A stretch of 52,656 nt of DNA from Sphingomonadales bacterium (GTDB taxonomy: Bacteria; Pseudomonadota; Alphaproteobacteria; Sphingomonadales; Sphingomonadaceae), in the NCBI GenBank assembly GCA_027486895.1, contig JAIXOE010000011.1, positions 1 through 52,656 of the forward strand. The letters are read 5' to 3'. Position 1 is the stretch's first letter, and the number at the start of each line of letters is the position of its first letter. Positions 2,528-24,914 of the stretch are shown piece after piece. The translations under genes were made by a program, and so were the position numbers. The notes beneath the pieces were generated by a model, which worked only from the letters and a program-made list of their open reading frames with translations, did no database searches and was not told where the DNA came from.

Positions 2528-2531
2528 AAAC

Positions 2532-5390: not shown

Positions 5391-5599
5391 ACACCGTTGA
5401 GCGCCTTGTTTACATGGCCAACCAGATTGCGACCAATCTTGCGACCGATGACGCGCCGGTTGCGGCGGTGGCCGATCATATTCAGCAGTTCTGGGACCCA
5501 AGGATGAAGCGGCTGATATTTGCGCATGGGACCGAGGGCCTCTCTCCAGTTGCCGCCGCCGCCGTCCGCAAATTGGCAGACGCCCAAAATGCTGCCTGA
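5387..5599 (+). CDS. fdsD: NAD-dependent formate dehydrogenase, delta subunit
   Basis: This small 70-residue protein matches FdsD in length and in the pattern RLVYMANQIATNL ... HIQQFWDPRMK. FdsD co-purifies with soluble formate dehydrogenase and is thought to help assemble or stabilise the Mo cofactor-bearing complex. The ATG at 5387 overlaps the fdsA stop (ATGA). Its 3' end overlaps the start of fdhD by 11 bases. No metal-binding motif is visible. Identification rests on size, sequence and the conserved place directly after fdsA. Confidence 0.9.
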   Translation: MNTVERLVYMANQIATNLATDDAPVAAVADHIQQFWDPRMKRLIFAHGTEGLSPVAAAAVRKLADAQNAA

Positions 5600-6389
5600 A
5601 GAGGGCTCCAAGCCGTTCCAGTTTTCGGTGCTTCGGCCAAGTGGCAGCACGAACGAAGTGATACAACGGGCCGTCATCATCGAAGCCCCTGTCGCGATCG
5701 AATATAATGGCATCGGCTATGCCGTCATGATGGCGACACCTATCGACCTTGAAGATTTCGCCGTGGGCTTCAGCCTATCGGAGAGGTTGATTGCCCGCGC
5801 CGACGAGATTTTGGCAATTGACATGCACCAGGCTGAATTGGGCTGGATATTGCGCATCCAATTGCCGCAGGAGAATGCCGAAAAAGTGATCGCCCGCGCG
5901 CGACAACGTGTCTCCGAAAGCAGCTGCGGTTTGTGCGGCATGGACAATCTCGAAGAAGTCATGCGGCCTTTGCCACGGATAACCGCGCAGATTGAAGTAA
6001 TTGATGATGCAGTTTTTGCGGCATTGTCCGCATTGCGCGCCCATCAGACGTTGAATGCCCAAACGGGTTCCGCGCACGCAGCGGCGTTTTGCGCGCCTGA
6101 TGGCACTATCCTTATGACCCGCGAAGACGTTGGCCGGCATAATGCGCTCGACAAATTAATTGGCGCGCTCGCCCGTGCGGACATAGACATAGCCGCAGGG
6201 TTCATCTTGTTAACCGCGCGCTGCAGCCTCGAGTTGGTCCAAAAGGCCATTCTCGCCAACTGCCCGACGCTCGTCACAATCTCGGCGGCGAGCGACCTTG
6301 CCATCGACGTAGCCGGTAAATCCGGCCTTCGCCTGATCAGCCTGGCGCGTGCGGACTCGGCTCTTGCCGCAATGCCCCAAACCGGCTGA
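5589..6389 (+). CDS. fdhD: Formate dehydrogenase accessory sulfurtransferase FdhD (FdsC)
   Basis: The chosen ATG at 5589 gives 266 residues and overlaps fdsD by 11 bases; the frame stays open further upstream, but only inside fdsD. FdhD carries sulfur from a cysteine desulfurase to the molybdenum centre, giving the sulfido ligand that formate dehydrogenase requires. The conserved CxxC is present in SSCGLCG (about residues 117-123), and the family motif REDVGRHNALDKLIG lies in the C-terminal half. It is the last gene of the fds operon. Its last 53 bases overlap the 3' end of the opposing LysR gene, so there is no room for a terminator between them. Confidence 0.93.
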   Translation: MLPEEGSKPFQFSVLRPSGSTNEVIQRAVIIEAPVAIEYNGIGYAVMMATPIDLEDFAVGFSLSERLIARADEILAIDMHQAELGWILRIQLPQENAEKVIARARQRVSESSCGLCGMDNLEEVMRPLPRITAQIEVIDDAVFAALSALRAHQTLNAQTGSAHAAAFCAPDGTILMTREDVGRHNALDKLIGALARADIDIAAGFILLTARCSLELVQKAILANCPTLVTISAASDLAIDVAGKSGLRLISLARADSALAAMPQTG

Positions 6390-7251
6390 TGAGCCAGCTG
6401 CGAAACATCGAAATCGCCGGGTCGGACAAGTCATCGGCGTGGAGTTTTAGATAATAGCCATAGCCGTCTTCGATGACGGCATCATAAGGCATCACAAGCC
6501 GCCCGTCGGCGATTTCCCGCGCAAACATATCAACATCACCCAAAAACACGCCGCTTGCGGTCATGGCATATTGCGCAGCGGCAATTGTGGTATCGAACGC
6601 GAGCCCGCCATGTGTCGCCATGGTCAGCCCACTCTGCCGAAGGTAGGCCGTCCACAACAAATCGCGCGGCTCGCCGTCCAATTTAAGGTGAAGCAGTTCC
6701 TCGCTTTCCAAAAACTGTTCCAATGATTTGCCCTGACTGGCAATCGCAGTAGCTGGCGAACACAAAGGCGCAACGCGGACCATCCAGAGAAGGTCTGTAA
6801 TCCGATCATCAACATTGGGCCGGTCATATGCAATCGCCATGTCAAAATCGGTCGCCGGCAAACCGGTGACATGTGCGCTTGAAACATCAAGCCGGATGTC
6901 CGGATATTCGGCACGAAAATCGCGCAGCATTGGCAAGAACAGCTGCTGCAACAAGGATGGCGGCACATGAAGCCGAAGCGAACGGCTGGTCACTTCATCA
7001 TTGCGGATAGAATTCATGGTTTGCTCAAGCCGGTCGAGACATTTGCTCACGACTGGCAACAGTTCTTCACCTGCGGGTGTTAGCAATAGCCGCGACGCAT
7101 CGCGGACGAAGAGTTGCTTTCCAAGCAATTCCTCAAGTCCCCCGACGTGGCGGCTCATTGCACTTTGCGACACCGAAAGCGCCGATGCACCGCCGGTAAA
7201 ACTCAAATTCTGGCCCACCGCTTCAAACGCACGCAAGGCATTCAACGGCAA
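6337..7251 (-). CDS. LysR-family transcriptional regulator (GcvA-like)
   Basis: This 304-residue regulator has an N-terminal winged helix-turn-helix (PLNALRAFEAVGQNLSFTGG, then SVSQSAMSRHVGGLEELLGK, residues about 2-50) and a C-terminal LysR substrate-binding domain. It is most like GcvA, the type often found next to glycine/methylamine genes. It is transcribed away from the Rieske oxygenase operon at 7428 and probably controls it. The start is uncertain. Residue 1 is a TTG at 7249-7251 with no clear ribosome-binding site. The frame stays open for 15 more codons upstream, and that stretch (NRRW before LPLNALRAF) resembles the usual GcvA N-terminus, so a rare start such as ATT near 7266 is possible. 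The 3' end overlaps fdhD tail-to-tail. Confidence 0.88.
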   Translation of the reverse strand: MPLNALRAFEAVGQNLSFTGGASALSVSQSAMSRHVGGLEELLGKQLFVRDASRLLLTPAGEELLPVVSKCLDRLEQTMNSIRNDEVTSRSLRLHVPPSLLQQLFLPMLRDFRAEYPDIRLDVSSAHVTGLPATDFDMAIAYDRPNVDDRITDLLWMVRVAPLCSPATAIASQGKSLEQFLESEELLHLKLDGEPRDLLWTAYLRQSGLTMATHGGLAFDTTIAAAQYAMTASGVFLGDVDMFAREIADGRLVMPYDAVIEDGYGYYLKLHADDLSDPAISMFRSWLISRFGALRQEPSPHAPG

Positions 7252-7427: not shown

Positions 7428-8639
7428 ATGGATTTAGGGCGGATTGACGCGCTGTTCCAGCAGCGTCGCGAAGGACATACCTTACCGCAGGGTCTGTATA
7501 CCGACCCTGATAGCTTCGATTTCGACATGAACGCTATTTATGGGCAAAGCTGGCTGATGGCGGGCTTGGAATGCGAACTGCCCAAAGCCGGAAGCTATCT
7601 GTCGATGATGGTCGGCAAATGGCCTGTTGTCATCACGCGCGATCGCCAGGGCGAAATCCACGCCTTCCACAACAGTTGCCGCCATCGCGGTTCCATGATT
7701 TGCGCCGTCGGAAGCGGCACCGCACCAAAGCTGGTTTGCCCTTATCATCGCTGGACATATGATCTGGACGGCTCGCTATTTGCTGCAAACCGGATGGGCG
7801 ATGATTTCGAAAAAGCCGATCACGGTCTGAAGCCGGTTGCCATCGAATGCATCGCGGGCGCCATCTTCATTTGTTTGGCCGAAACACCGCCGCCAATTGA
7901 CGATTTTCGCGAAAAGCTTGAAGAATATGCAGCGCCGCATAACCTGAAAGATGCAAAGCTGGCGCATGAGAGCGTTCTGGTCGAAAATGCCAACTGGAAA
8001 CTGGTCATGGAGAATGGCCGGGAATGCTATCATTGCAGCACCGGCCACCCCGAGCTTTCAAAAACATTTCCGGTAGGAATGTCGAAGCATTTTGACAGCG
8101 GCCATGACGCGCGGGTTATCGCTTTCGAAGAGAAAATGGACGCGCTTGGCCTCCCGCAAACCCCTGTTGAGGGGCATTACTGGCAAATCGCCCGATTTGC
8201 CTTGAACGAAGGCTGCGTTTCGATATCGGGCGATGGCAAGCACCTTTCCCAAAAGCTGATGTGCGAAGCAAACGGCGGCGACATTGGTTCGATGCGCTGG
8301 GCAATCGACCCGCACTGCTTTGTGCATTGCGCGGCGGATCATGTTTTCATGTTCAGCGCTATGCCCGTTGGCCCCAACGAAACGCATGTGACCGGCAAAT
8401 GGTTTGTGCACAAAGACGCGGTTGAGGGCGTCGATTATGACGTCGACAAGCTGATCGCCTTGTGGACTACAACCAATCTGGAAGACAAAGCACTTGCCGA
8501 AAATAATCAGGTTGGCGTGAACAGCCTCGGCTATACGCCTGGTCCCTATTCGCAAGAAGCGGAAATGCTCGCCCAGCGCTTTACCGACTATTATTGCGAT
8601 AAAGCCCGTGAATATATTGACGCCCATGGCAAAGGATAA
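7428..8639 (+). CDS. Rieske [2Fe-2S] aromatic-ring-hydroxylating-type oxygenase, N-demethylase of quaternary amine (GbcA/Stc2-like)
   Basis: This 403-residue protein is an oxygenase alpha subunit. The Rieske ligands are C84-x-H86 (NSCRHRG) and C104-x2-H107 (CPYHRWTYDLDG). The mononuclear iron site is in GRECYHCSTGHPEL with H202 and H207; the third (Asp) ligand should lie in the C-terminal half. In this family (glycine betaine GbcA, stachydrine Stc2, carnitine CntA) the enzyme hydroxylates an N-methyl group, releasing formaldehyde and a tertiary amine. The substrate cannot be read from sequence. It is clearly paralogous to the Rieske protein at 26164-27366 (shared HTLP, DDFxKADHGL, NWKLVMEN segments). 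No ferredoxin reductase gene is adjacent. It is first in an operon with a PLP lyase, two flavoproteins and soxBDAG. Confidence 0.9.
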   Translation: MDLGRIDALFQQRREGHTLPQGLYTDPDSFDFDMNAIYGQSWLMAGLECELPKAGSYLSMMVGKWPVVITRDRQGEIHAFHNSCRHRGSMICAVGSGTAPKLVCPYHRWTYDLDGSLFAANRMGDDFEKADHGLKPVAIECIAGAIFICLAETPPPIDDFREKLEEYAAPHNLKDAKLAHESVLVENANWKLVMENGRECYHCSTGHPELSKTFPVGMSKHFDSGHDARVIAFEEKMDALGLPQTPVEGHYWQIARFALNEGCVSISGDGKHLSQKLMCEANGGDIGSMRWAIDPHCFVHCAADHVFMFSAMPVGPNETHVTGKWFVHKDAVEGVDYDVDKLIALWTTTNLEDKALAENNQVGVNSLGYTPGPYSQEAEMLAQRFTDYYCDKAREYIDAHGKG

Positions 8640-9885
8640 AAACAAGGGGTTGCGTCCCGAAACGCTGGCCGTCGCTTATGGCTATGACCCGGAAATGGGC
8701 ATGGGATCGGTAAAGCCACCGATTTTCATGACATCCACCTTTGTCTATCCAACGGCGCAGCATGCCAAGAACGTGCATGAGGCGTATTTTGACGGCACGG
8801 GGCCACTGGTTGGCGAAACCAACCACATATATTCGCGGTTGGGGCATCCAGGGTTGGACTTCCTCGAAAAGCGCCTCGCGGCAATCGATGGCGCCGAGGA
8901 AGCGGTTGCCTATTCCAGCGGCATGGCCGCGCATTCGAGCATTGCGCTTGCACATGTTCGCCCCGGCGACAGCGTGTTGCATGGCCGCCCGATCTATGGC
9001 GGGGTCGATATGCTCTACAACAGCATCATGCCGCAATTCGGATCGCATGCAACGGCCTATATTGACGGCACTGATGAAAACAATGTCCGCAAAGCGGCGG
9101 ATGAAGCGATGTCTAAGGGACCGCTTAAGCTCATTATCGCCGAGTCACCCGCCAACCCGACCGCAGCCTTGGTTGATCTCGATCTGATGGTACGGATTGC
9201 GGACGAAGTTGGTGCCAAGCAAGGACACCGACCGCTTGTGGTGGTCGACAACACCTTGCTCGGGCCATTTGCGCAGCGTCCCATCGAACATGGGGTCGAC
9301 CTGTGCATGACCTCGCTGACGAAATATTGCGGCGGACATAGTGATCTGCTCGCGGGCGGAATTACGGGTCGCAAGGAACTGATCGACCATCTGCGAATGC
9401 AGCGCACGACGTGGGGCAATCACCTTGATCCCTACACGTCGTGGCTGGTGCTGCGATCTTTGGAATCTGTGGCTGTCCGTACCGAGCGGGCGATGGAAAA
9501 TGCGCGCGGTGTTGCAGAATTTTTGCGTGATCATCCAAAGGTCGCGGGCGTGACCTATTTGGGTTTTCTTGAACAAGGCACACGCCCTCGTGCTGTCTAT
9601 GACCGGCAGTGCAAGGCAGCCGGTTCGACGTTCTCGTTCCACCTGCACGGCGGCGAGGCCGAGGCCTTCCGTATGCTTGATCGCTTAGAGCTCCTCAAGC
9701 TGGCTGTCAGTCTGGGCGGTTCCGAAACGCTTATTTGTCATTCGGCGAGCACAACGCATTATGCCGTTGCGCCCGAGCAGCGGCTGGCTGGCGGCATTAC
9801 CGACGGCACTATCCGGCTGTCTGTTGGACTTGAACATGTAGATGATTTGATCGGCGATTTGCGCCAAGCGCTAGAGGCAGTGTGA
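8626..9885 (+). CDS. PLP-dependent gamma-lyase/synthase of the Cys/Met metabolism family (substrate unknown)
   Basis: This 419-residue fold-type I PLP enzyme has its Schiff-base lysine at K233 (SLTKYCGGHSD). Y69 and R71 (IYSRLGHP) are the phosphate-contacting pair supplied by the neighbouring subunit, and Y124 (PIYGG) is the stacking/acid tyrosine. Two residues after Y124 it has glycine, not the cysteine that marks methionine gamma-lyase, so methionine is unlikely to be the main substrate. Enzymes of this family eliminate or replace a gamma-substituent of homoserine-type amino acids (O-acyl, S-alkyl or O-substituted). Its place between a Rieske N-demethylase and N-methyl amino acid dehydrogenases suggests a homoserine-derived, N-methylated substrate. 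ATG 8626 was preferred over GTG 8608; it overlaps the Rieske stop by 14 bases. Confidence 0.87.
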   Translation: MAKDKNKGLRPETLAVAYGYDPEMGMGSVKPPIFMTSTFVYPTAQHAKNVHEAYFDGTGPLVGETNHIYSRLGHPGLDFLEKRLAAIDGAEEAVAYSSGMAAHSSIALAHVRPGDSVLHGRPIYGGVDMLYNSIMPQFGSHATAYIDGTDENNVRKAADEAMSKGPLKLIIAESPANPTAALVDLDLMVRIADEVGAKQGHRPLVVVDNTLLGPFAQRPIEHGVDLCMTSLTKYCGGHSDLLAGGITGRKELIDHLRMQRTTWGNHLDPYTSWLVLRSLESVAVRTERAMENARGVAEFLRDHPKVAGVTYLGFLEQGTRPRAVYDRQCKAAGSTFSFHLHGGEAEAFRMLDRLELLKLAVSLGGSETLICHSASTTHYAVAPEQRLAGGITDGTIRLSVGLEHVDDLIGDLRQALEAV

Positions 9886-11348
9886 TGGAACTGAATTTTA
9901 CCGGAACCGATTTATGCGCGATAAACGGAACGCGTAGCGCGCCCGAAACGCATTATGATACTGTCGTTATTGGCGCTGGACCAAGCGGCGTGGCTGCGGC
10001 CATCGATGCGGCCACAGCCGGAGCAAAGGTGCTGCTGGTCGATGAAAATCCGGTCTCGGGCGCTGTGATGGGCAATGATGTTCCGCTCTATTTTGGCGGA
10101 CGGATGACATCGGCAACGCAAAATGCAGAGCGCATGCTTGAGGCGATATTCATGAGCATGCCCGCGCTAGAAACGGCAATGGACGCAGGGGTCGAGTTGC
10201 TACTCGGTACGACAGCATGGGGTGTTTACCGCAACGGTCCCGGCGTCGCCAGCCTGCCGCAGCAAGTTGTTGGCCTTGCCGATTCCGAACGCTCTTGGCT
10301 GGTTGGTTTTGATAAAATCATTCTCGCCACCGGCGCGCGGGATTTGGCGATGGCCTTTCCCGGATGGAACCAGCCAGGCGTTATGGGCGCGGCGGCACTT
10401 CAAATGCTGCTTACCCGTTACGAAGCATTTGCGGGACGGCGCATGTTGGTATTGGGGTCGCATGATCTCGCGCTCGAAACGGCGTTGCTTGCAAAGGACC
10501 GTGGCGTCGACGTTTTAGGCCTGATTGAAGTCCGCGACGCGCCGCAGGGACATTCCGATCTGGTCGCCAAGGTCGCGGCCGCTGGCATCATCATCCACTG
10601 CGGACAGACCATTACAGCGGCAAAAGGCGGCATTAACGGGGTCGAAAGCGCGACGCTCAAAACCGGAGAAGAGATCGCCTGTGATACCATCTGCGTCGCC
10701 ATCGGCCTGATCCCCTCAATCGAACTGGTTGATGCAATGCATGGGCCCCGCGCGCTCAGCGCAATGCGGGGCGGTTACATTCCGGCCGGTGAACCCACGG
10801 TGTCGGCTGTCGGCGATTGTGCAGGGCTTGCGGATAGTGGTTTCGACCATATCGCTTACCGGATGGACTGGATGCGCGCGCTGTCGTCAGTCAGCGCCGA
10901 TGACACGATCATCTGCCAGTGTGAAGAAGTCACGCGCGCCGATTTGATCGGTGTGCAGCCCCCCAATTATCTGTCGCGCCCGGCGCCAATGTGCGCCCGT
11001 TCGCTCGATACCCTGCTTGAGGACGGCCCGGCCAACCCGGACCAGATCAAGCGGCTGACACGCGCGGGCATGGGTGTGTGCCAAGGCCGCCGCTGCCGCG
11101 ATCAGGTGGCGATGTTGCTCGCGATTGAAGCAGACAAGCCATTCGGCTCAATCCCGCTCGCTAGCCACCGAGCGCCTGTTCGTCCGCTGCCGCTCAAGAT
11201 CCTCGCGGAATGGGATGAACCAGCAGAAATGGATGCGGCATGGGACGTCTGGTTCGGTATTCCGACCGCCTGGGTGCCGCACGAGGATATTGGCACCCCC
11301 TATCAGGATGAGCATCGCGAAATGCTTTACACAGGTATGTACAAATGA
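9885..11348 (+). CDS. FAD/NAD(P)-binding oxidoreductase with BFD-like [2Fe-2S] region (HcnB/OoxA-type alpha subunit)
   Basis: This 487-residue protein begins with a dinucleotide-binding motif (VVIGAGPSGVAAA, about residues 28-40) and a second one near the middle (LVLGSHDLALETA). A cysteine-rich segment follows, with CQC (CQCEEVTRADLI) and CQGRRC spaced as in bacterioferritin-associated-ferredoxin-like [2Fe-2S] domains. This layout is that of the A/alpha subunits of opine oxidases, hydrogen cyanide synthase HcnB and D-hydroxyproline dehydrogenase, which pair with a DAO-family beta subunit. That partner is the next gene, overlapped by 4 bases (ATGA at 11345). ATG 9885 overlaps the PLP gene stop by 1 base and has AGAGG upstream. 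It may oxidise an N-methyl or secondary amine, or feed electrons to the Rieske enzyme. Confidence 0.85.
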   Translation: MELNFTGTDLCAINGTRSAPETHYDTVVIGAGPSGVAAAIDAATAGAKVLLVDENPVSGAVMGNDVPLYFGGRMTSATQNAERMLEAIFMSMPALETAMDAGVELLLGTTAWGVYRNGPGVASLPQQVVGLADSERSWLVGFDKIILATGARDLAMAFPGWNQPGVMGAAALQMLLTRYEAFAGRRMLVLGSHDLALETALLAKDRGVDVLGLIEVRDAPQGHSDLVAKVAAAGIIIHCGQTITAAKGGINGVESATLKTGEEIACDTICVAIGLIPSIELVDAMHGPRALSAMRGGYIPAGEPTVSAVGDCAGLADSGFDHIAYRMDWMRALSSVSADDTIICQCEEVTRADLIGVQPPNYLSRPAPMCARSLDTLLEDGPANPDQIKRLTRAGMGVCQGRRCRDQVAMLLAIEADKPFGSIPLASHRAPVRPLPLKILAEWDEPAEMDAAWDVWFGIPTAWVPHEDIGTPYQDEHREMLYTGMYK

Positions 11349-12481
11349 GCGGGTCAGAAGTTGTCATCGTCGGCGGCGGCGTCACAGGCTTAAGCGCCGG
11401 TTGGTGGCTGGCACGGTCAGGCGTTAAGGTTACCGTACTCGATAAGTTTATCGTTGGCTGGGAAGCATCTGGACGTAATGGCGGGGGCGCATCGCATTAT
11501 GCCAGCCCCTTGTTCGATGAAGAACAAAGGATGTGGCCGCAAATGGACGAACTGCTCGGCTATCCTACCGAGCACCAGAAAGAACGCATCATCATCGCGA
11601 TGACCGAGCGGCAGTGGGAGCAATATCGTTTCGTTGCCGAACGGCATAAGCGCCTGAACCATGCGGTTGAGCTGCTTGATACTAAACAGGTCCTCGACGC
11701 GGTACCGCTGGCCAGTGAAAAAGCTTTCGGCGGGGTTCATTACAAATTCGGTGGCCATGCCAATCCGCAACGCACCACGCAAGCTTATGCCTGGGCGCTG
11801 CAGGATCTGGGTGGCACGATCGTTCAGCATAGCCCGGTCACCGGCTTTGAAACGGCTGGAGGAAAAGTGACGGCGGTCAAAACAGCAACCGCCACGTACG
11901 GCTGCGATAATGTCGTGGTCGCCGCTGGCCCACAAATTCCGCAACTAATGGCGCAGCTGGGTGTCAATGTGCCGCTCGCTGCTGCACGGGCCGAGATGAT
12001 CATCACTGAGCCTGCGCCGATGATGCCGCTAACTGGTGTTGACGGGCACAAGCTTTATGGCCGCCAAACGATGCGCGGCAATCTGGCGTATGGCGGCGGC
12101 CCACATGAATGGCTTGATATGGACGCAGATGGTCCCGCCGCGCGACCATCCACGCCGCTGGCCCGTAACCTTGCGAAGCGATTGGCGGAAATGCTGCCAA
12201 AGGCCGCGCATCTGAATGTTATTCGCAGTTGGGCTGGGATCATCGAAAACTCCCCCGACGGCCGTCCAATCATCGACCGCCTCACCAGCCCCGACAATGT
12301 CGTGGTCGCGTCAATGTCGAGCGTCGGTTTTGGTTTATCACCCGCGTCGGGCCACGCGATCCGCGATTTGGTGATAGATGGCAAATGCTCGTTCGCGGAT
12401 ATCGATATTCTCAAACTATCGCGTTTCGATAATCTTGAGGCCGATTGGCGCGAAAAGCGCGGGTGGATGCCGATTTCATGA
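11345..12481 (+). CDS. DAO-family FAD-dependent oxidoreductase (HcnC/OoxB/DadA-like beta subunit)
   Basis: This 378-residue flavoprotein starts with the FAD-binding motif VVIVGGGVTGLSAGWWLA and continues with the glycine-rich EASGRNGGG segment. Near the C-terminus it has RSWAGIIENSPDGRPIID, the standard second FAD contact of the D-amino-acid-oxidase/sarcosine-oxidase superfamily. It is the likely catalytic beta subunit partnering the 9885-11348 product, as in opine oxidase or D-hydroxyproline dehydrogenase. Expected chemistry is oxidation of a secondary or tertiary amine C-N bond. Here that could be removal of an N-methyl group as formaldehyde. No covalent-flavin histidine motif like that of SoxB is visible. 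The stop overlaps soxB (ATGA). Confidence 0.85.
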   Translation: MSGSEVVIVGGGVTGLSAGWWLARSGVKVTVLDKFIVGWEASGRNGGGASHYASPLFDEEQRMWPQMDELLGYPTEHQKERIIIAMTERQWEQYRFVAERHKRLNHAVELLDTKQVLDAVPLASEKAFGGVHYKFGGHANPQRTTQAYAWALQDLGGTIVQHSPVTGFETAGGKVTAVKTATATYGCDNVVVAAGPQIPQLMAQLGVNVPLAAARAEMIITEPAPMMPLTGVDGHKLYGRQTMRGNLAYGGGPHEWLDMDADGPAARPSTPLARNLAKRLAEMLPKAAHLNVIRSWAGIIENSPDGRPIIDRLTSPDNVVVASMSSVGFGLSPASGHAIRDLVIDGKCSFADIDILKLSRFDNLEADWREKRGWMPIS

Positions 12482-13734
12482 GCCGATATTCGGCTTTCGG
12501 ATTGCTGCGCGGTGCCTTTAACGGGCAAAAGCATTGGCAGCCTGCGTGGCGCGATCCGGAGCCTAAGACGCATTATGATATCATCATCATCGGCGGCGGC
12601 GGGCATGGGCTGGCGACGGCCTATTATCTTGCCAAAGTCCACGGTCTGAAAAACATCGCGGTGCTGGAAAAAGGCTGGATCGGCGGCGGCAATACCGGGC
12701 GCAACACAACAATTGTCCGGTCAAATTATCGGCTAAAGCCATTGCACGACCTGTTTGAATTCGGCCTGAAGATGTGGGAGCATCTCAGCGACGAGTTGAA
12801 TTACAATGTGATGTTCTCCCCTCGCGGCGCGATGTTTCTAGGTCACAGCGACGCCGATATGACCAAGCTTGCAGAACGCGGCGACGCGATGCGGTGCGAC
12901 GGGATCGATGCCGATTTGATGACTCGCGACGAAGTTGCAAAGCTTGAACCGTTGCTCGACATGTCACGCAGCGCGCGCTTCCCGATTGAGGGAGGCTTGA
13001 TTCAGCGGCGCGGCGGAACCGCCCGCCATGATGCCGTCGCCTGGGGCTATGCGCGCGGAGCCGACAGCCTTGGCGTGGACATCATCCAGAAGTGTGAAGT
13101 CACAGGCTTTATCCGTGATGGCGATGCGGTGGTAGGCGTCGAAACCACGCGCGGGCGGATCAACGCTGGCCGCGTTGGCATTTGCGTTGCGGGCAATAGC
13201 GGCCATGTTGCCGGGCTGGCGGGGATCAAGCTACCGGTGGAATCCCAAACGCTGCAGGCGATGGTCACCGAAGGCGTAAAGCCGATGCTGAACAGCGTCA
13301 TCATGTCACAATCACTGCATTGCTATATCAGCCAATCGGACAAGGGCGGCATCGTCTTCGGCGGTGACCCTGACAATTGGCCAAGCTATGCGCAGCGCGG
13401 CAACCCGATGGTGATGGAGCATGCAGTGGCACAGGGCCTTGCGCTCGTACCTGCGTTATCACGCTTGCGTATGGTTCGGACGTGGTCGGGCGTGACCGAC
13501 ATGAGCTTTGACGGCGCGCCGATTATTGGCGAAACGCCCGTTGAGAACCTCTTTCTGAACGGCGGCTGGTGCTATGGCGGGTTCAAGGCGACACCTGCAT
13601 CTGGCTGGACCTATGCGCACACGCTGGCAACCGGCAAGCCGCATGCGCTGAACGCGCCGTTCGCACTCGACCGTTTTGAACGCGGCGCGACAATTGATGA
13701 AACAGGGACCGGCCCGATGCCGAATAGCCGCTAA
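12478..13734 (+). CDS. soxB: Sarcosine oxidase, beta subunit (first copy)
   Basis: This 418-residue subunit of heterotetrameric sarcosine oxidase starts with YDIIIIGGGGHGLATAYYLA (FAD binding, about residues 33-52) and has GWIGGGNTGRNTTIVRSNY. H184 in RRGGTARHD is at the position where FMN is covalently attached in characterised SoxB. The C-terminal motif GGWCYGGFKATPASGW is also typical. The enzyme oxidises sarcosine or a similar N-methyl amino acid, giving glycine, H2O2 and 5,10-methylene-THF or formaldehyde. The start at 12478 overlaps the preceding gene by 4 bases. An upstream in-frame start would overlap it further and lacks support. It is followed by soxD, soxA and soxG in the canonical order. 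Confidence 0.93.
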   Translation: MSRYSAFGLLRGAFNGQKHWQPAWRDPEPKTHYDIIIIGGGGHGLATAYYLAKVHGLKNIAVLEKGWIGGGNTGRNTTIVRSNYRLKPLHDLFEFGLKMWEHLSDELNYNVMFSPRGAMFLGHSDADMTKLAERGDAMRCDGIDADLMTRDEVAKLEPLLDMSRSARFPIEGGLIQRRGGTARHDAVAWGYARGADSLGVDIIQKCEVTGFIRDGDAVVGVETTRGRINAGRVGICVAGNSGHVAGLAGIKLPVESQTLQAMVTEGVKPMLNSVIMSQSLHCYISQSDKGGIVFGGDPDNWPSYAQRGNPMVMEHAVAQGLALVPALSRLRMVRTWSGVTDMSFDGAPIIGETPVENLFLNGGWCYGGFKATPASGWTYAHTLATGKPHALNAPFALDRFERGATIDETGTGPMPNSR

Positions 13735-13997
13735 TGATGCAGATAACTTGCCCCCATTGCGGCCCGCGCGCGCAGGCTGAATTTGTCTATGAACGCACTG
13801 TCGATTCTGTGGTGGCGCTTGATGCGTCACCCGAAGATGCAATGCGCACGCTCTTCACCCGCGATAATCCACGCGGTGTTGATGACGAAATCTGGCGTCA
13901 TACTTATGGCTGCCGCGCGTGGATGGTCGTTACCCGTCACCGCGTTACCAACGAAATCAGCGCAATCCGCGCGGTTGGGCCGGAGGTGCTGCCATGA
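13734..13997 (+). CDS. soxD: Sarcosine oxidase, delta subunit (first copy)
   Basis: This 87-residue zinc-binding subunit has CPHCG near the N-terminus (C6, C9) and a later H/C pair in WRHTYGCRAW, matching the zinc site of SoxD. DNPRG ... EIWRH is the usual core. The start is the ATG at 13734, sharing one base with the soxB stop; a second ATG follows at once at 13737, and either is possible. The stop overlaps soxA by 4 bases. It is needed for assembly of the SoxBDAG complex rather than catalysis. Confidence 0.92.
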   Translation: MMQITCPHCGPRAQAEFVYERTVDSVVALDASPEDAMRTLFTRDNPRGVDDEIWRHTYGCRAWMVVTRHRVTNEISAIRAVGPEVLP

Positions 13998-16732
13998 TCA
14001 ACTTCAGCTTCGACGGTAAAAACTATACGGCGCAAAAAGGCGACACACTCGCCGCTGCGCTCTTGCGAAATGGCATTGGCCTGGTTGGCCGCAGTTTCAA
14101 ATATCATCGCCCACGCGGGATCATGACCGCGGGTGTCGAGGAACCCAACGCACTTGTCACCATCGGTGAAGGTGGGCGAACTGAACCAAATACCCGCGCC
14201 ACTGATGTGTTCGTGTACGAAGGACTGGTCGCCAAAAGCCAGAACCGATGGCCGAACCTGTCATTCGATATCGGCGCTGTATTTGGCTTGGCCGCCCCGG
14301 TCATATCGGCCGGTTTCTACTACAAGACCTTTTTCGGCTCCGCCAAACGATGGATGTTCTACGAACATTTCATCCGCAGAGCGGCGGGTCTCGGCAATGC
14401 GCCGACAGAAACAGACCCAGACCGTTTTAGCCAACGTGCAGCCTTTTGCGATGTGCTCGTGGTCGGCGCGGGACCAGCAGGCCTTTCCGCCGCTCTTGAA
14501 GCGGTCGAAGCAGGCAAGCGCGTCATCCTCGTTGAACAGGACAATATCCTAGGCTCATCGCTAATCCGAGATCCACAGGAACTCGATGGTGCATGGGTGG
14601 AAGCGACCGCCGAACGCATCCGCGCCGCTGGAGGACGCATCCTCACACGCACCACCGCGTCTGGATATTGGGAGCATGATCTGGTCACGCTAACGCAGCG
14701 CATAGCAGAACCTGGTCAAATCCCTTTGCAAGGCGTTGCACAGCGACTGTGGCATATTCGGGCCGCTAAAGTGATACTTGCCACCGGCAGCATTGAACGC
14801 CCGATGGCCTTTGCGCACAATGATCGCCCGGGCGTGATGCTATCGCAAGCCGTGCGGACTTATGTGCATCGCTTTGGCGTGGTTCCGGGCAAACGCGTTG
14901 TGATCGCAACCAACAATGATGACGCATACAAAACTGCGCACGCGCTACAAGCGGCTGGGGCCGAGGTCGTTGCCATCCTCGATGCGCGGCCAGCACCGGC
15001 GGGAGCCGACAGCGGCTTGCCAGTCCACAACAATGCCGTTCCGCTTTCGACCGAAGGCGCGCGCCATTGCCTGAAAAGCGTGACCGCGCTTGTCGATGGC
15101 CAAGCGCAAAGCTGGCATGCTGATTTGCTCGCGGTGTCCGGTGGCTTCACGCCTGTCGTTCACCTTCACATGCAGGCAGGAGGCACGCTCGACTGGAACG
15201 ATGCCGCTCAAGCCTTTGTCCCCGCAATATCGCGTCAGAATGTAACGACAATCGGCGGTGCAGCAGATCCAAAGCCCGTGTTTAAAATGGTGCCTGTTTC
15301 CAAGCCCAAGAAAAGCTTCATCGATTTTCAGAATGATGTGACGCTGTCGGATGTCGACCTGGCGTGGGCCGAGGGCTATCGCTCTGTCGAGCATCTCAAG
15401 CGCTACACCACGCTTGGCATGGCAACCGATCAGGGCAAGCTGAGCAATATGGCGGCCCTCGGGCGCTTGGCCGAGAAGCAAGGCGTGGCCATTCACGAAG
15501 CTGGGCTAACCACATTCCGGCCGCCTTACACACCAGTTACGATGGGCCTTCTCGCTGGCGCTGGTGCGAAAGATGCTGGCGCGCATGTCCGCCGCCTTGC
15601 TTTGTACGATGTGCACGCGGCGAAGAACCCGATTTGGCAGCCATTAGGTTATTGGTTCCGTCCCCGCGCTTATCCGGCGGGCAGCGAAACACTGGCGCAA
15701 GCGGCGCTGCGTGAAGCAAAGGCCGTGCGGTCGACTGTCGGGATGACCGATGTTTCCACGCTCGCCAAGTTCGAAGTGAGCGGCCCGGACGCTGCCGCAT
15801 TTCTTGAGATCATCTGCGCAACTACGGTGAATAAACTTGCCGTCGGGCGCGGGCGATACACGTTCATGCTGCGTGAAGACGGCTTTGTGTTCGACGACGG
15901 AACCGTCTGGCGGTTGGAAGAGAACCGCTATCTGTTGACCAGTTCAACCGGTGGCGCGGACCGGATGGCGACGCATATCTCATATGTCCGCCAATATCTC
16001 TGTCCGCATTTGCGCGTGTCCGCCGTCAATGTGCAGGAGCATTATGCCGGGATTGCTGTCGCCGGGCCAAAGGCCAAGGTGGCGCTATCTGCATTGATCG
16101 GCGAGGAGCCTCCGCGCCATATGTCAACTGTTCCAGCGGTCATTGCGGGCGTCCCGGTTATCATTCTGGCCGCCAGCTACAGCGGGGAACGTGCTTTCGA
16201 AATCTATGTCGAAGCAAGCCACGCAGGAGCCGTTTGGGCAGCGTGCGAGACCGAGGTGATGGAGCAAGATGGCGCATTATACGGCCTTGAAGCCATGGAA
16301 TTTCTGCGCATTGAAAAGGGCCATCTGGTCGTCGGCGGTGAAGTTGATGGGCGGATGACCCCGCACGATCTTGCGCTCGACAAGATGCTCAATAAGACGG
16401 GCGGCTATGTCGGGGCTTCCGGCCTGTCACGCCCTGCCTTGTCTGAAACCGGACGGCGGCAATTGGTTGGTCTTGAAGCCATTGACGGGAACAATATTCC
16501 CGAAGGTGCAATGCTGGTCACACACGAAGGTGTGTCGCCTCAGGGCCATGTCAGCGCCGCTGCGTTTCGAATCATTGAAGGCGGGTCGATTGCGCTTGGC
16601 CAATTGACCGACGGCTTTGCGCGCCACGGCGAAGAGCTGATCGCAACCTCGCCAACGCGCGGTCAAAAGGCGCGGGTCCGCGTTGTGGCACCGCATTTCT
16701 ATGACACGGCTGGGGAGCGCTATCGTGACTGA
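13994..16732 (+). CDS. soxA: Sarcosine oxidase, alpha subunit (first copy)
   Basis: This 912-residue alpha subunit begins with a ferredoxin-fold domain lacking cluster cysteines (FDGKNYTAQKGDTLAAALLR, then FKYHRPRGIM). It then has an NAD-binding flavoprotein-like domain (VLVVGAGPAGLSAALEAVEA, about residues 155-175) and a GcvT-like aminomethyltransferase domain in the last 350 residues (AKFEVSGPDAAAFLE, YAGIAVAGPKAKV, FLRIEKGHLVVGGEVDG). The GcvT-type domain binds tetrahydrofolate and takes up the one-carbon unit. ATG 13994 overlaps the soxD stop. It is about 40 residues shorter than the second copy at 21784-24645, mainly at the N-terminus and between domains. Confidence 0.95.
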   Translation: MINFSFDGKNYTAQKGDTLAAALLRNGIGLVGRSFKYHRPRGIMTAGVEEPNALVTIGEGGRTEPNTRATDVFVYEGLVAKSQNRWPNLSFDIGAVFGLAAPVISAGFYYKTFFGSAKRWMFYEHFIRRAAGLGNAPTETDPDRFSQRAAFCDVLVVGAGPAGLSAALEAVEAGKRVILVEQDNILGSSLIRDPQELDGAWVEATAERIRAAGGRILTRTTASGYWEHDLVTLTQRIAEPGQIPLQGVAQRLWHIRAAKVILATGSIERPMAFAHNDRPGVMLSQAVRTYVHRFGVVPGKRVVIATNNDDAYKTAHALQAAGAEVVAILDARPAPAGADSGLPVHNNAVPLSTEGARHCLKSVTALVDGQAQSWHADLLAVSGGFTPVVHLHMQAGGTLDWNDAAQAFVPAISRQNVTTIGGAADPKPVFKMVPVSKPKKSFIDFQNDVTLSDVDLAWAEGYRSVEHLKRYTTLGMATDQGKLSNMAALGRLAEKQGVAIHEAGLTTFRPPYTPVTMGLLAGAGAKDAGAHVRRLALYDVHAAKNPIWQPLGYWFRPRAYPAGSETLAQAALREAKAVRSTVGMTDVSTLAKFEVSGPDAAAFLEIICATTVNKLAVGRGRYTFMLREDGFVFDDGTVWRLEENRYLLTSSTGGADRMATHISYVRQYLCPHLRVSAVNVQEHYAGIAVAGPKAKVALSALIGEEPPRHMSTVPAVIAGVPVIILAASYSGERAFEIYVEASHAGAVWAACETEVMEQDGALYGLEAMEFLRIEKGHLVVGGEVDGRMTPHDLALDKMLNKTGGYVGASGLSRPALSETGRRQLVGLEAIDGNNIPEGAMLVTHEGVSPQGHVSAAAFRIIEGGSIALGQLTDGFARHGEELIATSPTRGQKARVRVVAPHFYDTAGERYRD

Positions 16733-17216
16733 TGTAACAATCACATTACTACCCGCCTCACCGCTCCATGCTCTGGAGATATGGAGCAATCCGGCGTCTG
16801 TTGCCAAAAGGTTCAAGGCGGCATGCGGCTTTGCGCTGCCGGCAACGGGCTGTTCTGACGGCAACGACAAACTCCGCGTGATCCGCTATGAACCTACCGT
16901 CTGGCTGGTCGAGGGCGACGCATCGGCACTATCCGGAATATTGTGGGATGACGGTGCATTGACGGCTATCGGCGGCGGTATCGTTCGCATCCGCCTGTCA
17001 GGCGATGGCTGGCGCACGCTCCTGATGGAAGGCGGCGTTTTCGATGCGGAAAGCCCCAGTTTCGCTGCTGGTTGCAGCGCCGCAACAATCATCGATCACG
17101 TCAATGTCCGCCTACATGTCGTGGATGATGACATCTGCGACGCCTATGTTCCGCTAAGCTATAGCGAAGCGATCATCCATTTTTGGAAAACCGCAGCGCT
17201 TAGTTTGGCGCTTTAG
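16725..17216 (+). CDS. soxG: Sarcosine oxidase, gamma subunit (first copy)
   Basis: This 163-residue protein is in the usual SoxG position, with weak but recognisable similarity to the gamma-subunit family (WLVEGDASAL, IVRIRLSGDGWRTLLMEGGVFD, HVNVRLHVVDDD). The best start is GTG at 16725 (TDVTITLLPAS), which overlaps soxA by 8 bases and has the ribosome-binding site GGGGAG at 16712-16717. An ATG further upstream would overlap soxA much more. It closes the first operon. Its last 17 bases overlap the 3' end of the opposing hydrolase gene, leaving no terminator between the two convergent operons. Confidence 0.85.
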   Translation: MTDVTITLLPASPLHALEIWSNPASVAKRFKAACGFALPATGCSDGNDKLRVIRYEPTVWLVEGDASALSGILWDDGALTAIGGGIVRIRLSGDGWRTLLMEGGVFDAESPSFAAGCSAATIIDHVNVRLHVVDDDICDAYVPLSYSEAIIHFWKTAALSLAL

Positions 17217-18510
17217 GTAAGTGCCTTAGCGTCATGCCGCGCGCGTGCCGCCGCTGGAATCCCTTCCACAACGTCACCCCCGCATCGCCCGGGCTATATG
17301 CGCCCCACGGTGTCCCAGCGGGCGCATTCCATTCCCCTTCATCCGAATTTTCTACCGGCACATTGAGGTAAGAACCTTTGCTTTCGTCGTTGCGTAAATG
17401 CACCGCCAGAAATGCGGAGATAAAATGCAGGTTAATCGCATTGATCCGGTCTCGTCGCCAGATCGGGTCTTCGAACCAGTCCATGTCCCAAACCGACCCG
17501 CGCATTTCACGCGGCGCCGGGTTGAGCGCAATCGAATGGCCTGCTTGCTTGTAGGTGAGCAAGTAGCGGTCCGCATTTACGGCGCCACCAAAGACAGCCA
17601 GCGCGCCCGTTTTATAGTCAACAGTAAAGTCGCTATCGCCCTGAATTAGAAGCAGCGGCGCCGTTAGCGCGGCGAGGCCATCTGCACCCCATGCGCTACT
17701 TGGAGCGCCTCCAGCGGGTGCCAATGCCACAATAGCCCTAACACCTGCCAATTTCACTGCATCGGCATCTGCGCCGCCCCGCGCTGATCTCTTTAACGCC
17801 CCGCCTGCAACCAGCCCCATATTCGGCCCCAGCGGGTCAAGCGTTGCGCCGCCTGCGGTCAGTACGCCATAACCGCCCTGAGAGTAACCGATAAGCGCGA
17901 CATTATCCGGATCGATCAGTTCCCCCAAATAGTCCCGCAGCTGACTGGCCACAAAAACGATGTCGCGCGGTCGGTTAAAATTCGGTGCAGCGCGAGTGGT
18001 GGTGGTGGTGGATACGACGTAAGGATTTGGGTCGCGATGATGAATTGCAGCAACGACATAGCCTTTTGACGCAAGGTTCTCGGTCAACCACGTCATGACT
18101 GCGGGATTATTGCTATAGCCATGGCTGATGATCACCAAAGGATGCCTGTTACCAGCAGCCTTCGCGCCGCCAATCGCAAGGCCCTCTTGCGTGAAATTTA
18201 CCGGCGGAAGCGGTGGCTCGGCCCATAGACTTCCACGATAGGTAACGGTCTTTTTGCCGTTTTTGACCGACGCCGGATACCAGATATCCACCTGTAATTT
18301 ACGATCGTGGTTAGGAACCACAGCGCCGCTAGAATCTCCATTTTCGACATCCGGCTGATCCTGATGCGTGAACGTGACGGAGCGAAAGCCAACGCCGTAA
18401 TTGCCCAATGCAGCTAGTTCTGGGGCATCTGCACTGGGGACGCTGGGAACGCCAGCGTATATAGGGGCACTCAGCAAAATCAGAATGGAAGCAACAATAC
18501 GCCTTATCAT
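17200..18510 (-). CDS. Secreted alpha/beta hydrolase (dienelactone hydrolase / PAF-acetylhydrolase-like)
   Basis: This 436-residue protein begins with a signal peptide (MIRRIVASILILLSAPIYAG), so it acts in the periplasm or outside. The hydrolase fold shows the oxyanion region VIISHGYSNN, the nucleophile elbow GYSQGG (S210), an acid in IQGDSDF (D292 or D294) and the histidine in KQAGHS (H325). The overall plan resembles the bacterial platelet-activating-factor acetylhydrolase / dienelactone hydrolase superfamily; substrate unknown, probably an ester. ATG 18510 overlaps the LysR stop by 4 bases, so it is translationally coupled to that regulator and lies at the end of the second N-methyl operon. 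Such a protein could release acyl chains from a betaine-type lipid or hydrolyse a choline/carnitine ester, but this is inference. Confidence 0.8.
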   Translation of the reverse strand: MIRRIVASILILLSAPIYAGVPSVPSADAPELAALGNYGVGFRSVTFTHQDQPDVENGDSSGAVVPNHDRKLQVDIWYPASVKNGKKTVTYRGSLWAEPPLPPVNFTQEGLAIGGAKAAGNRHPLVIISHGYSNNPAVMTWLTENLASKGYVVAAIHHRDPNPYVVSTTTTTRAAPNFNRPRDIVFVASQLRDYLGELIDPDNVALIGYSQGGYGVLTAGGATLDPLGPNMGLVAGGALKRSARGGADADAVKLAGVRAIVALAPAGGAPSSAWGADGLAALTAPLLLIQGDSDFTVDYKTGALAVFGGAVNADRYLLTYKQAGHSIALNPAPREMRGSVWDMDWFEDPIWRRDRINAINLHFISAFLAVHLRNDESKGSYLNVPVENSDEGEWNAPAGTPWGAYSPGDAGVTLWKGFQRRHARGMTLRHLPKAPN

Positions 18511-19496
18511 GCCATCAACTCCTCACCTTCGACCGAAGCAGATGGCCAAGCCAGTTGCTGCGCCATCCATGGATATTCATCGATTAGCGGTGGGAAGGTT
18601 TGTTCTTGCAAAATCTGCTGGCACAAAGCCGCTGTTAGGCTGGGAATATCCCCCAATTCATCGATCCGCGCGACGACCTGAATCGACCGTGAAAACCGCC
18701 CCCTGGTCATTGGCTCGGCCCGCAATTGGGAAAGCAGTTCCGGAACCGCGGCCAAGCAGACTGGAGTGGTAATCGTCCAACCAAGTCCGGCTGCCACCAA
18801 TGCCAATTGCTGATGCGACGATTCCACTTCAACCGTCTGCGGAAGTTTCAGCTTCATCCGAACAATCTGGCGCTCGATCTGCTGCCCTGTTCCCGTAAGC
18901 CGCGAGAACCGGATGAACGGCAACGACGACGGCAAGCCGACAATATCCAGTGGCTCTCGAAAATCTTTAGGAAAAACAAGAATGAAGCTTTCCTCAAACA
19001 CCGGGTGCAGTTCCACTGTATCGCGATGCTCAAGATTGAAGCTACCGGTTACGAGCATATCAATATCCCGCGCCAGAAACTCGCCCTGATGCTCCATGGA
19101 GATACCAGATCGAATATTCCACCGTTCCGCCCGCGATCCGAGACTATGCAAAATGGGTGCTGTCAGCTGGTTGGCAAGGCTGAACGACATCGCGACCGTA
19201 ATGCTTGATATTGGCAAGCTTGCGCCTTCGCGGACTTCGTCATAGGCCAGTCGGGCATGGGCAATTAGCTTTTGTCCGCGCGCGAACAACGACTTGCCGC
19301 TGGCCGTTAGGCCCAATGGCCGCATCGTGCGGTCAAATAACGACGCCCCGATACCAGCTTCCAGCTTCGCAATTGTCTGTGAAACCGCCGATTGTGTTAC
19401 CTGCAAATGGGCCGCGCATTGCGACATGCCGCCAAGCTCGACGGTCATCACGAATACCTCGAGTGCGTGCAGATCAAATTCTTGTGGCAGTTTCAT
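18507..19496 (-). CDS. LysR-family transcriptional regulator
   Basis: This 329-residue regulator has an N-terminal winged helix-turn-helix (HALEVFVMTVELGGMSQCAA, then VTQSAVSQTIAKLEAGIG) and a LysR effector-binding domain. ATG 19496 has the strong ribosome-binding site GGGAGGG at 19504-19510. It belongs to a different LysR subgroup from the 6337-7251 protein. Placed between a BCCT transporter gene and a secreted hydrolase gene, all on the minus strand, it probably responds to a substrate or product of this catabolic region. Inverted repeats just upstream (19521-19602) look like its own operator. The last 4 bases overlap the hydrolase start. Confidence 0.87.
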   Translation of the reverse strand: MKLPQEFDLHALEVFVMTVELGGMSQCAAHLQVTQSAVSQTIAKLEAGIGASLFDRTMRPLGLTASGKSLFARGQKLIAHARLAYDEVREGASLPISSITVAMSFSLANQLTAPILHSLGSRAERWNIRSGISMEHQGEFLARDIDMLVTGSFNLEHRDTVELHPVFEESFILVFPKDFREPLDIVGLPSSLPFIRFSRLTGTGQQIERQIVRMKLKLPQTVEVESSHQQLALVAAGLGWTITTPVCLAAVPELLSQLRAEPMTRGRFSRSIQVVARIDELGDIPSLTAALCQQILQEQTFPPLIDEYPWMAQQLAWPSASVEGEELMA

Positions 19497-19671
19497 GCAG
19501 CAACCCTCCCAAGCGTGCAGGCATAGCCAATGGCTAATATTACCTCAGCTAATGGCTATGCGACACGGTTGGTAATAGTGCTATGCATTTTCGACATAGC
19601 CAGATTATGAGTCAAGTGCGTTGCAGGCTTGCATCACTTTGCTGAACATCGCCCAGCGGTGAAATGTTAGC
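19497..19671. promoter_or_regulatory. LysR promoter region with repeated CATAGCCA / TGGCTATG elements
   Basis: In this 175-base region upstream of the LysR gene, GCATAGCCA (19521-19529) and TGGCTATGC (19553-19561) form a 9-base perfect inverted repeat. A further palindrome, GCTATG at 19580-19585 and CATAGC at 19595-19600, has the T-N11-A spacing of LysR sites. Read on the minus strand, the last element is GGCTATGTCGAAAATGC, which matches the 7348-7363 element with one inserted base. CTAATATTA lies at 19534-19542. The region probably holds an autoregulatory LysR operator. A clear terminator for the upstream BCCT gene is not visible. Confidence 0.6.
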
Positions 19672-21255: not shown

Positions 21256-21284
21256 TGCACCCTCCCCAAGGTTTCAAGCAACTG

Positions 21285-21791
21285 TCAATGGCTGGCCGCC
21301 GCCGTGAATGCCGCCCATAGCCATGCAGCAAAACTGCGCCAAACCTCGACATGGAAACGGTCTTCATCATCTCGGATGATTATGATTTCGACCGTCTCAT
21401 AAATTGTCCGCGTGGCGCGGCCGACAACGAAATTGTCGAGATTAAGCGGGCAACCTGTCATCAGCAGTTCCGCTGCGCGCGGTCCTTCGACCACGAGGCA
21501 TATCGACCGATCGCTGATGTCTGTGATGGCAACCGGCAAACCCGCACCCGATGGAATTGTCGCGCTGACTTCTGCACGCAGCAACCATTCGTCGGGGCCA
21601 AGGCAAGCAATCCCGCCCTCAGTCGCGCCAATTTTCTTGGGCACTTTTACGTTGAGCAAGGTTTCCAGAGTTTGCGCAGTCCGCGCCCGCAGCGAATATC
21701 GATTCTGCGGCGCTGCAAGGCTAATCGTAACCCCCTCAGCGATAAATGGCGTCGAAGGAACAGGTTCGTTCCTTATGAGGACGTCAGACAT
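21285..21791 (-). CDS. soxG: Sarcosine oxidase, gamma subunit (second copy)
   Basis: This 168-residue gamma-subunit homologue has the family segments CLGPDEWLLRAE, AITDISDRSICLVVEGPRAAELL and GCPLNLD. The ATG at 21791 is preferred (MSDVLIRNEP) because it follows GGAAGGAG at about 21799-21806 and overlaps the soxA stop by only 8 bases; an upstream ATG at 21815 would cost 32 bases of overlap. This copy is closer to textbook SoxG than the one at 16725-17216. It is followed at 21255 by the BCCT gene after a 29-base gap. Confidence 0.9.
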   Translation of the reverse strand: MSDVLIRNEPVPSTPFIAEGVTISLAAPQNRYSLRARTAQTLETLLNVKVPKKIGATEGGIACLGPDEWLLRAEVSATIPSGAGLPVAITDISDRSICLVVEGPRAAELLMTGCPLNLDNFVVGRATRTIYETVEIIIIRDDEDRFHVEVWRSFAAWLWAAFTAAASH

Positions 21792-24645: not shown

Positions 24646-24914
24646 CGACGCGGTTCCCCGGCTTTATATGTTGTTTCAAATTTATCGGTCACAGTATCGC
24701 GTACCGCGTTGAAGAAACGGCCGCAGCCATGCACATGCCGCCAGCGTTCATGATGGCGCCCGCGCGGATTGGCGCGAATGAAAAGATACGCCTCCCACTC
24801 TTCGTCGCTTTGGCTCGACGGGTCCAATGGGCGGGCAACATGCGCTTGTCCGGCATTGGCAAACTCAATCTCGGGGCGCTTCTCGTCGCAATAAGGGCAA
24901 TGAATTAAGATCAT
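24642..24914 (-). CDS. soxD: Sarcosine oxidase, delta subunit (second copy)
   Basis: This 90-residue zinc-binding subunit has CPYCDEKRPEIEF at residues 6-18, with C6 and C9 as zinc ligands. The conserved core FIRANPRG ... RWRHVHGCGRFF follows, with the other ligands among its H and C residues. It is closer to the family consensus than the 13734-13997 copy. The ATG at 24914 shares one base with the soxB stop, and the stop overlaps soxA (ATGA). Confidence 0.94.
   Translation of the reverse strand: MILIHCPYCDEKRPEIEFANAGQAHVARPLDPSSQSDEEWEAYLFIRANPRGRHHERWRHVHGCGRFFNAVRDTVTDKFETTYKAGEPRR

Follow-up and report, generated by a model that had tools for sequence, protein, structure and literature searches.

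Gene order and conservation of the operon

The window analysed here comprises 52,656 nucleotides of contig JAIXOE010000011.1 (positions 1 to 52,656) from the 2.87 Mb assembly GCA_027486895.1 of a Sphingomonadales bacterium, whose close named relatives belong to Sphingorhabdus. Between positions 7428 and 17216 of the plus strand, eight listed reading frames adjoin or overlap and form a compact one-strand operon (op1) with the order RO1, PLP enzyme, dhA, dhB, soxB1, soxD1, soxA1 and soxG1. This order and the family calls had been put forward in an original prediction, and domain matches confirmed them for all eight frames. RO1 (7428..8639) is a Rieske non-haem iron oxygenase, recognised by its Rieske/Ring_hydroxyl_A match and motifs and predicted to demethylate an α-betaine from the trimethyl to the dimethyl state. 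The pyridoxal phosphate (PLP) enzyme (8608..9885) belongs to the PRK07049 branch of the Cys/Met family, with a Cys_Met_Meta_PP match and the catalytic Lys239. dhA (9882..11348; Pyr_redox_2 and SO_alpha_A3/BFD-like domains) encodes the HcnB-like FAD/[2Fe-2S] subunit of a two-subunit dehydrogenase and dhB (11345..12481; DAO domain) its HcnC-like flavoprotein subunit; the pair is predicted to lead from the dimethyl to the monomethyl state. The sarcosine-oxidase-type β subunit soxB1 (12445..13734), whose listed start falls within the 3' end of dhB, is predicted to take part in the release of the primary amine. It exceeded its NCBIfam cut-off (654.8, cut-off 529.45), while soxD1 (13734..13997; 79.8, cut-off 116.5), soxA1 (13919..16732; 1010.4, cut-off 1164) and soxG1 (16683..17216; 37.3, cut-off 143.95) were recognisable below theirs. 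SoxA1 is an α subunit with ferredoxin-like, FAD, A3 and folate-binding GCV_T domains. A second operon, op2 (18507..29920, minus strand), identified by domain and NCBIfam matches, served as comparison.

A scan of genome contigs with the PLP protein, reaching close relatives only, collected 49 loci from Sphingorhabdus, Novosphingobium, one Sphingopyxis metagenome-assembled genome (MAG), other Sphingomonadales/Sphingomonadaceae and one record titled Pseudomonadota. As query, the PLP gene is given in all of these. Same-strand neighbours were counted within 10 kb flanks at those loci whose contig has room. The Rieske gene accompanied the PLP gene in 46 of 47 loci (the miss being L054), dhA in 42/42, dhB in 41/41, soxB1 and soxD1 each in 38/38, soxA1 and soxG1 each in 33/33. 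With its counterpart in Sphingorhabdus rigui the PLP protein shares 94 % identity, with those of two sphingomonad MAGs 95 %; a match of at least 78 % identity occurred in 25 of 37 genomes of the genus (own genome included, one match partial). A protein search gave at least 120 close clusters at 94-97 % identity among the matches listed, and 7,500 of 7,999 scored candidates fell below E 1e-100, paralogues not being separated in either count. Independently of the PLP protein, dhA as query (E <= 1e-70) detected 8 genomes among 246 of the order, 7 among 385 of the class and 4 among 398 of the phylum, each count including the own genome. The fetched locus held the PLP gene in 10 of the 14 other genomes (G001, G006, G008, G100, G416, G716, G795, G887, G901 and G938). 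The distribution of the module is patchy, not universal.

Seven further loci were examined outside the 49 (L106, L110, L111, L126, L127, L128 and L129). PLP, dhA and dhB were present in all seven, with PLP adjoining dhA even where SoxBDAG was missing and with a LysR homologue beside the core; the Rieske gene was found in six, not in L127. Three of the genomes represent other families (G416, G100 and G795). Same-strand SoxBDAG genes follow the core in L126, L127 and L128 (no soxG match was seen in L128), and in L110 (G416) the sox genes are convergent to it. In L111 (G100) and L129 (G795) SoxBDAG is replaced by one DAO oxidase after dhB; the best NCBIfam model of the L111 protein, to which the L129 protein is 54 % identical, is N-methyl-L-tryptophan oxidase (171.5, below the cut-off of 257). 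A GbcB-like reductase gene (213.5, cut-off 500) stands between the Rieske and PLP genes of L111, which further has a divergent betaine-type importer of OpuAC, permease and ATPase; the sole solved match of the importer's binding protein was 7yle, by its title a glycine betaine/proline ABC transporter binding protein. When the order of G100 was searched, no genome other than G100 was reached. The core of L110 is followed by an S-(hydroxymethyl)glutathione dehydrogenase (formaldehyde dehydrogenase; 639.7, above the cut-off of 543.95) and, downstream, an esterase-family gene. A sugar-type ABC system near the G795 core was set aside, a LacI regulator standing beside it. Conservation of the gene set, on which the original prediction had made itself dependent, was thus found: because the 49 loci retain the neighbours with a single miss wherever the contig has room, and further families possess the core as well, the co-occurrence of the eight genes is not a matter of chance. 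At L065 (2732-7751, a Novosphingobium MAG), FTHFS and two MttB-family (PF06253) methyltransferase genes adjoin an operon that has kept RO1, possibly as a second demethylation route.

The PLP enzyme and the predicted demethylation systems

The PLP protein was assigned to the cystathionine gamma-synthase family NF005455/PRK07049 (520.8, cut-off 504), with 5ijg and 7swh as nearest solved structures. Its frame is listed from a GTG at 8608; translation more probably begins at the inner ATG at 8626, where the gene overlaps the stop of RO1. Residues were compared between 55 operon proteins and 21 non-operonic relatives, numbered after methionine gamma-lyase (MGL). The equivalents of MGL Tyr58, Arg60, Tyr113 and Lys210 are kept in 55/55 operon proteins, that of the carboxylate-binding Arg374 in 54/55 with one gap. 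At 19 sites one residue is held by at least 90 % of the operon rows and another by at least 80 % of the others. A tree of 49 rows (25 operon, 24 other), built from the window's protein and 48 of 93 rows after removal of duplicates and closely similar sphingomonad rows, placed the operon proteins on one side of a single branch with support 93/94, found in 93 % of 200 bootstrap trees. Close grouping with a housekeeping enzyme had been named beforehand as a refutation; the protein did not group with the tested paralogues. A housekeeping PLP enzyme was rejected as principal explanation, in view of the operon clade, of four other Cys/Met-family-like genes elsewhere in the genome and of 20 loci of broader relatives (9.8-19 kb each) without a Rieske, dh or sox match. 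Two Rhizobium plasmid regions likewise had no Rieske, dh or sox gene annotated. In the plasmid collection, 397 records hold relatives of the PLP protein, 396 below 60 % identity; 165 of the records are from Salmonella and 127 from Rhizobium.

The best solved match of RO1 was 3vca (44.0 % identity), the stachydrine demethylase Stc2. The Rieske CxH...CxxH motif is present at residue 84, and a Glu occupies the bridging position as in Stc2. Residue counts refer to 52 operon Rieske proteins, many of them near relatives; the sequences of L107, L108 and the duplicate L130 were set aside, and the window's RO1 and RO2 (second Rieske protein, of op2; 26164-27366, minus strand) were compared separately. 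The iron ligands H202, H207 and D353, aligned with Stc2 H204, H209 and D360, were each kept in 52/52, as was the CxxC pair C200/C203 beside the mononuclear iron, aligned with Stc2 C202/C205. Such a Cys-X-X-Cys is described as a feature of some group V Rieske oxygenases (PMC10952381). In CntA, Tyr203 makes a π-cation contact with the ammonium group; the glycine-betaine and stachydrine enzymes have Asn there (PMC7948474). With the register set by the cysteine pairs of CntA and Stc2 (PMC10952381) and the CntA sequence itself outside the alignment, this position (Stc2 position 199) held Gly in 32 of the 52 proteins, Ala in the other 20 and Asn in none; RO2, Stc2, L107 and L108 have Asn. The position of Stc2 Trp305 is Phe in 52/52. 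As its group Vb Asn is replaced by Gly or Ala, RO1 is, on its residues, a divergent relative rather than a plain member of group Vb. On the GbcA model NF058607 neither RO1 (448.2) nor RO2 (390.5) passed the equivalog cut-off of 670.

The dehydrogenase pair also occurs in other surroundings. dhA-like genes were present on 22 plasmid records, and four regions (Novosphingobium capsulatum, Paracoccus denitrificans, Ancylobacter and Rhizobium) were examined. On the Paracoccus (L107) and Ancylobacter (L108) plasmids, the vicinity of dhAB (dhA 40 and 42 %, dhB 58 and 60 % identical to the window) includes a Rieske oxygenase, glycine-betaine ABC genes and a GbcB-like reductase, which is 39-40 % identical to the G100 protein. 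These clusters have MmgE/PrpD and no PLP gene and are probably another betaine pathway; their composition speaks for dhAB acting next after a Rieske N-demethylase. Among 42 SoxB1 sequences, at least 90 % hold another residue at 33 sites where TSOX and SoxB2 agree, among them a Gly-Thr to Cys-Tyr exchange before the conserved GGFK motif. The sites were placed by sequence alignment, and SoxB2 is a single sequence.

Whether op1 may simply be a second, divergent glycine-betaine operon, its PLP enzyme a hitchhiker of sulfur amino-acid metabolism, has to be judged against op2. The latter consists of LysR2 (18507-19496), a BCCT importer (19672-21255), soxB2/D2/A2/G2 (21285-26167), RO2 and a dimethylglycine (DMG)-dehydrogenase-like protein with DAO, FAO_M and GCV_T domains (27371-29920), all on the minus strand. 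It is a probable glycine-betaine pathway, a label that is itself an inference since neither Rieske protein reaches the GbcA cut-off. The higher GbcA score of RO1, the usual role of SoxBDAG as sarcosine oxidase and the nearby BCCT gene speak for such a duplicate. The BCCT gene lies about 9.8 kb past PLP, at the edge of the flanks, and was seen in 2/49 loci, so that its link to op1 is tentative. Against the duplicate, op2 is already a full set in which SoxB2, SoxD2 and SoxA2 exceed their NCBIfam cut-offs, the group Vb Asn is gone from all operon RO1 proteins, SoxB1 is fixed at its 33 divergent sites, and PLP adjoins dhA in all seven further loci, some of them without SoxBDAG. We regard the duplicate as quite unlikely. 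As op2 fits the logic of glycine-betaine breakdown, op1 probably works alongside it on a different methylated compound.

Proposed pathway and candidate substrates

A PLP enzyme requires a primary amine, so that a trimethylated substrate must first lose three methyl groups. Enzymes of the Cys/Met family mostly act on γ- or β-substituted L-amino acids, which points to a γ (or β) leaving group. Stc2 places the carboxylate of its substrate at the iron, unlike CntA (PMC7948474), and thereby the relatives of RO1 point to α-betaines. Together, α-betaine and Cys/Met family favour a homoserine-type betaine with a predicted leaving group. The original view of three N-demethylation-type systems and a PLP enzyme with a catabolic function gained from the conserved set, from the fixed differences to the glycine-betaine and sarcosine enzymes and from the recurrence with another oxidase and, once, a betaine-type importer. 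We consider the general scheme, three demethylations followed by PLP cleavage, fairly probable. With slightly less confidence, still on the favourable side, we read the operon as serving the aerobic catabolism of an α-betaine with a side-chain leaving group, most likely of the homoserine-betaine class. RO1 would remove the first N-methyl group oxidatively, the FAD/[2Fe-2S] dehydrogenase dhAB the second and SoxBDAG the third, possibly onto tetrahydrofolate; in two other lineages a single-chain protein resembling N-methyl-amino-acid oxidases would perform the third demethylation. The freed primary amine would form an aldimine with the PLP enzyme, and elimination of the γ-substituent would yield 2-oxobutyrate and ammonia. 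Oxidation of formaldehyde and formate would fall to the adjacent Fds-type formate dehydrogenase or take place elsewhere. Three formaldehydes had originally been expected; the third methyl group may instead leave as methylene-tetrahydrofolate, given the folate-binding GCV_T domain of SoxA1.

The assignment of the substrate to the homoserine-betaine class itself, either homoserine betaine or glyceryl-trimethylhomoserine, is tentative. Homoserine betaine is an osmolyte of Trichodesmium (PMC13403184, PMC6753628), and a Chlamydomonas lipase frees glyceryltrimethylhomoserine from the lyso form of the betaine lipid diacylglyceryltrimethylhomoserine (DGTS) in vitro (PMC11711679), which makes a natural occurrence of both candidates plausible. 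The ecological link between hosts and substrates is loose: the Trichodesmium and reef records are marine, and the titles of L034, L041, L063 and L075 name ponds or a bloom. Algal and cyanobacterial debris may sustain the Sphingorhabdus and Novosphingobium hosts. In algae such as Chlamydomonas and in phosphate-starved bacteria, betaine lipids occur as lipids of the membrane. The link to these lipids is a good guess open to experiment.

Several observations weigh against the proposed pathway. No sequence feature identifies the γ-substituent. Four of the 14 genomes found with dhA (G116, G147, G352 and G430) had neither a PLP nor a Rieske gene in the fetched stretch, two of these stretches being short; L054 and L127 lack RO1 at its usual place, and on the N. 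capsulatum plasmid (L106) no sox match was obtained in the stretch fetched around the core. The Rhizobium plasmid region L109 (dhA/dhB 34/39 % identical) gave no PLP or Rieske match. A Rieske match was likewise missing from L112-L115, two of them (L112 and L115) short contigs; these results run contrary to an exclusive pairing of dhAB with Rieske oxygenases. The window's genome yielded no GbcB-type reductase as electron donor for RO1; PF00175 matched only a 250-aa frame on contig C26; the G100 reductase as query also gave no match, a weak result because the search had no positive control. Finally, the position of MGL residue 115, the active-site Cys in the wild-type Citrobacter freundii enzyme, is Gly in 55/55 operon PLP proteins (Gly in 16 and Ala in 5 of the 21 non-operonic relatives). 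The PLP enzyme is accordingly not a classical methionine gamma-lyase.

The same exchange bears on an S-substituted betaine, such as methionine betaine, as substrate of the same cascade, with the PLP enzyme releasing a thiol. Membership in the Cys/Met family, methionine gamma-lyase as second-best NCBIfam model (336.2, below the cut-off of 549.7) and Val at the MGL-338 position in 55/55 operon proteins are in its favour. We consider it unlikely, as the lyase Cys is replaced by Gly throughout, no thiol-handling gene stood out among the scanned, not exhaustively annotated flank genes, and no methionine-betaine demethylation pathway was found in the openly licensed literature (CC0, CC BY and CC BY-SA papers). 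Another α-betaine, proline-betaine-like or aromatic, whose freed amino acid would undergo β-elimination, replacement or racemisation by the PLP enzyme, could be suspected from the nearest solved relatives of RO1, stachydrine demethylase and a homologue, and from the similarity of the single-chain oxidase of G100 to N-methyltryptophan oxidase. Proline betaine needs two demethylations only and leaves a secondary amine, and the usual substrates of the Cys/Met family argue in the same direction; this alternative is very unlikely. A homoserine-type betaine, as such or as its glyceryl ether, remains our preferred substrate, other γ-substituted betaines being less likely. That op1 is the first recognised full breakdown pathway of homoserine betaine and glyceryl-trimethylhomoserine, common in Sphingorhabdus and Novosphingobium, with three oxidative N-demethylations and a PLP γ-lyase cutting the C-O (ether) bond of homoserine, is put forward as a possibility with considerable doubt.

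Neighbouring genes and comparison with known systems

Upstream of op1 lie genes of an fds-type formate dehydrogenase (136..6389, plus strand), named by domain content as FdsG-, FdsB- and FdsA-like plus FdhD; the adjacent fds operon expected from the first analysis is borne out. An FdhD homologue was near the operon in 18/49 loci, and the enzyme is a possible sink for the released C1 units. A LysR-type regulator (6337..7251, minus strand; HTH_1 and LysR_substrate, best NCBIfam model GcvA with 183.6 below the cut-off of 288) is divergent from op1 and has homologues in 30/49 loci. Convergent to soxG1 is an alpha/beta hydrolase (17200..18510, minus strand) with PAF-AH/PETase-like matches and an N-terminus that looks by eye like a signal peptide. 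It was seen in 14/49 loci and is a candidate for freeing the head group from an ester-linked lipid. A TonB-dependent receptor divergent to RO1 (L067, 5562-8246) has homologues in 14/49 loci, two of them only 34-35 % identical, and suggests outer-membrane uptake of a larger substrate. Neither gene is universal; both together hint at a larger or lipid-linked substrate. In keeping with the proposed pathway, the window's genome has a methylmalonyl-CoA-mutase-family gene, which belongs to a route for propionyl-CoA derived from 2-oxobutyrate. A PF12831 FAD-dependent oxidoreductase (FAD_oxidored) was present in 13/49 loci and in G416, adjoining the operon in Novosphingobium and G416 (L067 18752-20185; L110 13898-15262); an 82 % homologue lies in the window's genome at the edge of another contig (G000:C26:19-1380, L137). 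It was left out of the pathway, as no role could be assigned. Synthesis of betaine lipids by the organism itself was rejected, since its genome had no BtaA-type (PF11899) match; the control search was positive in 1 of 14 genomes. Elsewhere, the window encodes an RPE65-family carotenoid oxygenase (32070-33524) and an adjoining aldehyde dehydrogenase (33542-35032).

In the CC0, CC BY and CC BY-SA literature, where absence stays unproven, we found no described breakdown pathway for homoserine betaine or a betaine-lipid head group and no betaine-demethylation operon of Rieske oxygenase, sarcosine oxidase and lyase; PMC10315480 and PMC10132767 deal with synthesis or remodelling of DGTS. The operon offers a concrete, testable gene set for a possible recycling of such head groups.

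Known systems share parts of op1. The canavanine gamma-lyase, likened here by its description, is a PLP γ-lyase and converts canavanine to homoserine and hydroxyguanidine; the portion of the paper used here mentions no N-demethylases alongside it (PMC10018355). The PRK07049 branch of 5ijg and 7swh has the catalytic residues in common with the operon clade, which stands separate and differs at the 19 sites. HcnABC and the D-hydroxyproline and opine dehydrogenases combine Pyr_redox/BFD-like and DAO subunits like dhAB, which unlike them leaves no room for a small ferredoxin gene between dhA and dhB and is associated here with Rieske oxygenases. With group Vb (GbcA/BmoA, Stc2), RO1 shares the CxxC pair, the His/His/Asp ligands and the Glu bridge, whereas Asn is exchanged for Gly or Ala and Trp305 for Phe in 52/52. 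Closest is the published glycine-betaine route with the Rieske system gbcAB, the DMG dehydrogenase dgcAB and soxBDAG, fed in Vibrio natriegens by BCCT uptake (PMC12093977). This route runs through a Rieske, a flavoprotein and a tetrameric sarcosine oxidase step, as op1 is predicted to do, but in op1 an HcnBC-like pair stands for DgcAB, a PLP enzyme is part of the operon, fixed sites set RO1 and SoxB1 apart, and no GbcB-like protein was found in the genome, in a search without positive control. Even with another betaine as substrate, the module of Rieske oxygenase, HcnBC-like pair, N-methyl-amino-acid oxidase and PLP enzyme is distinct from glycine betaine breakdown.

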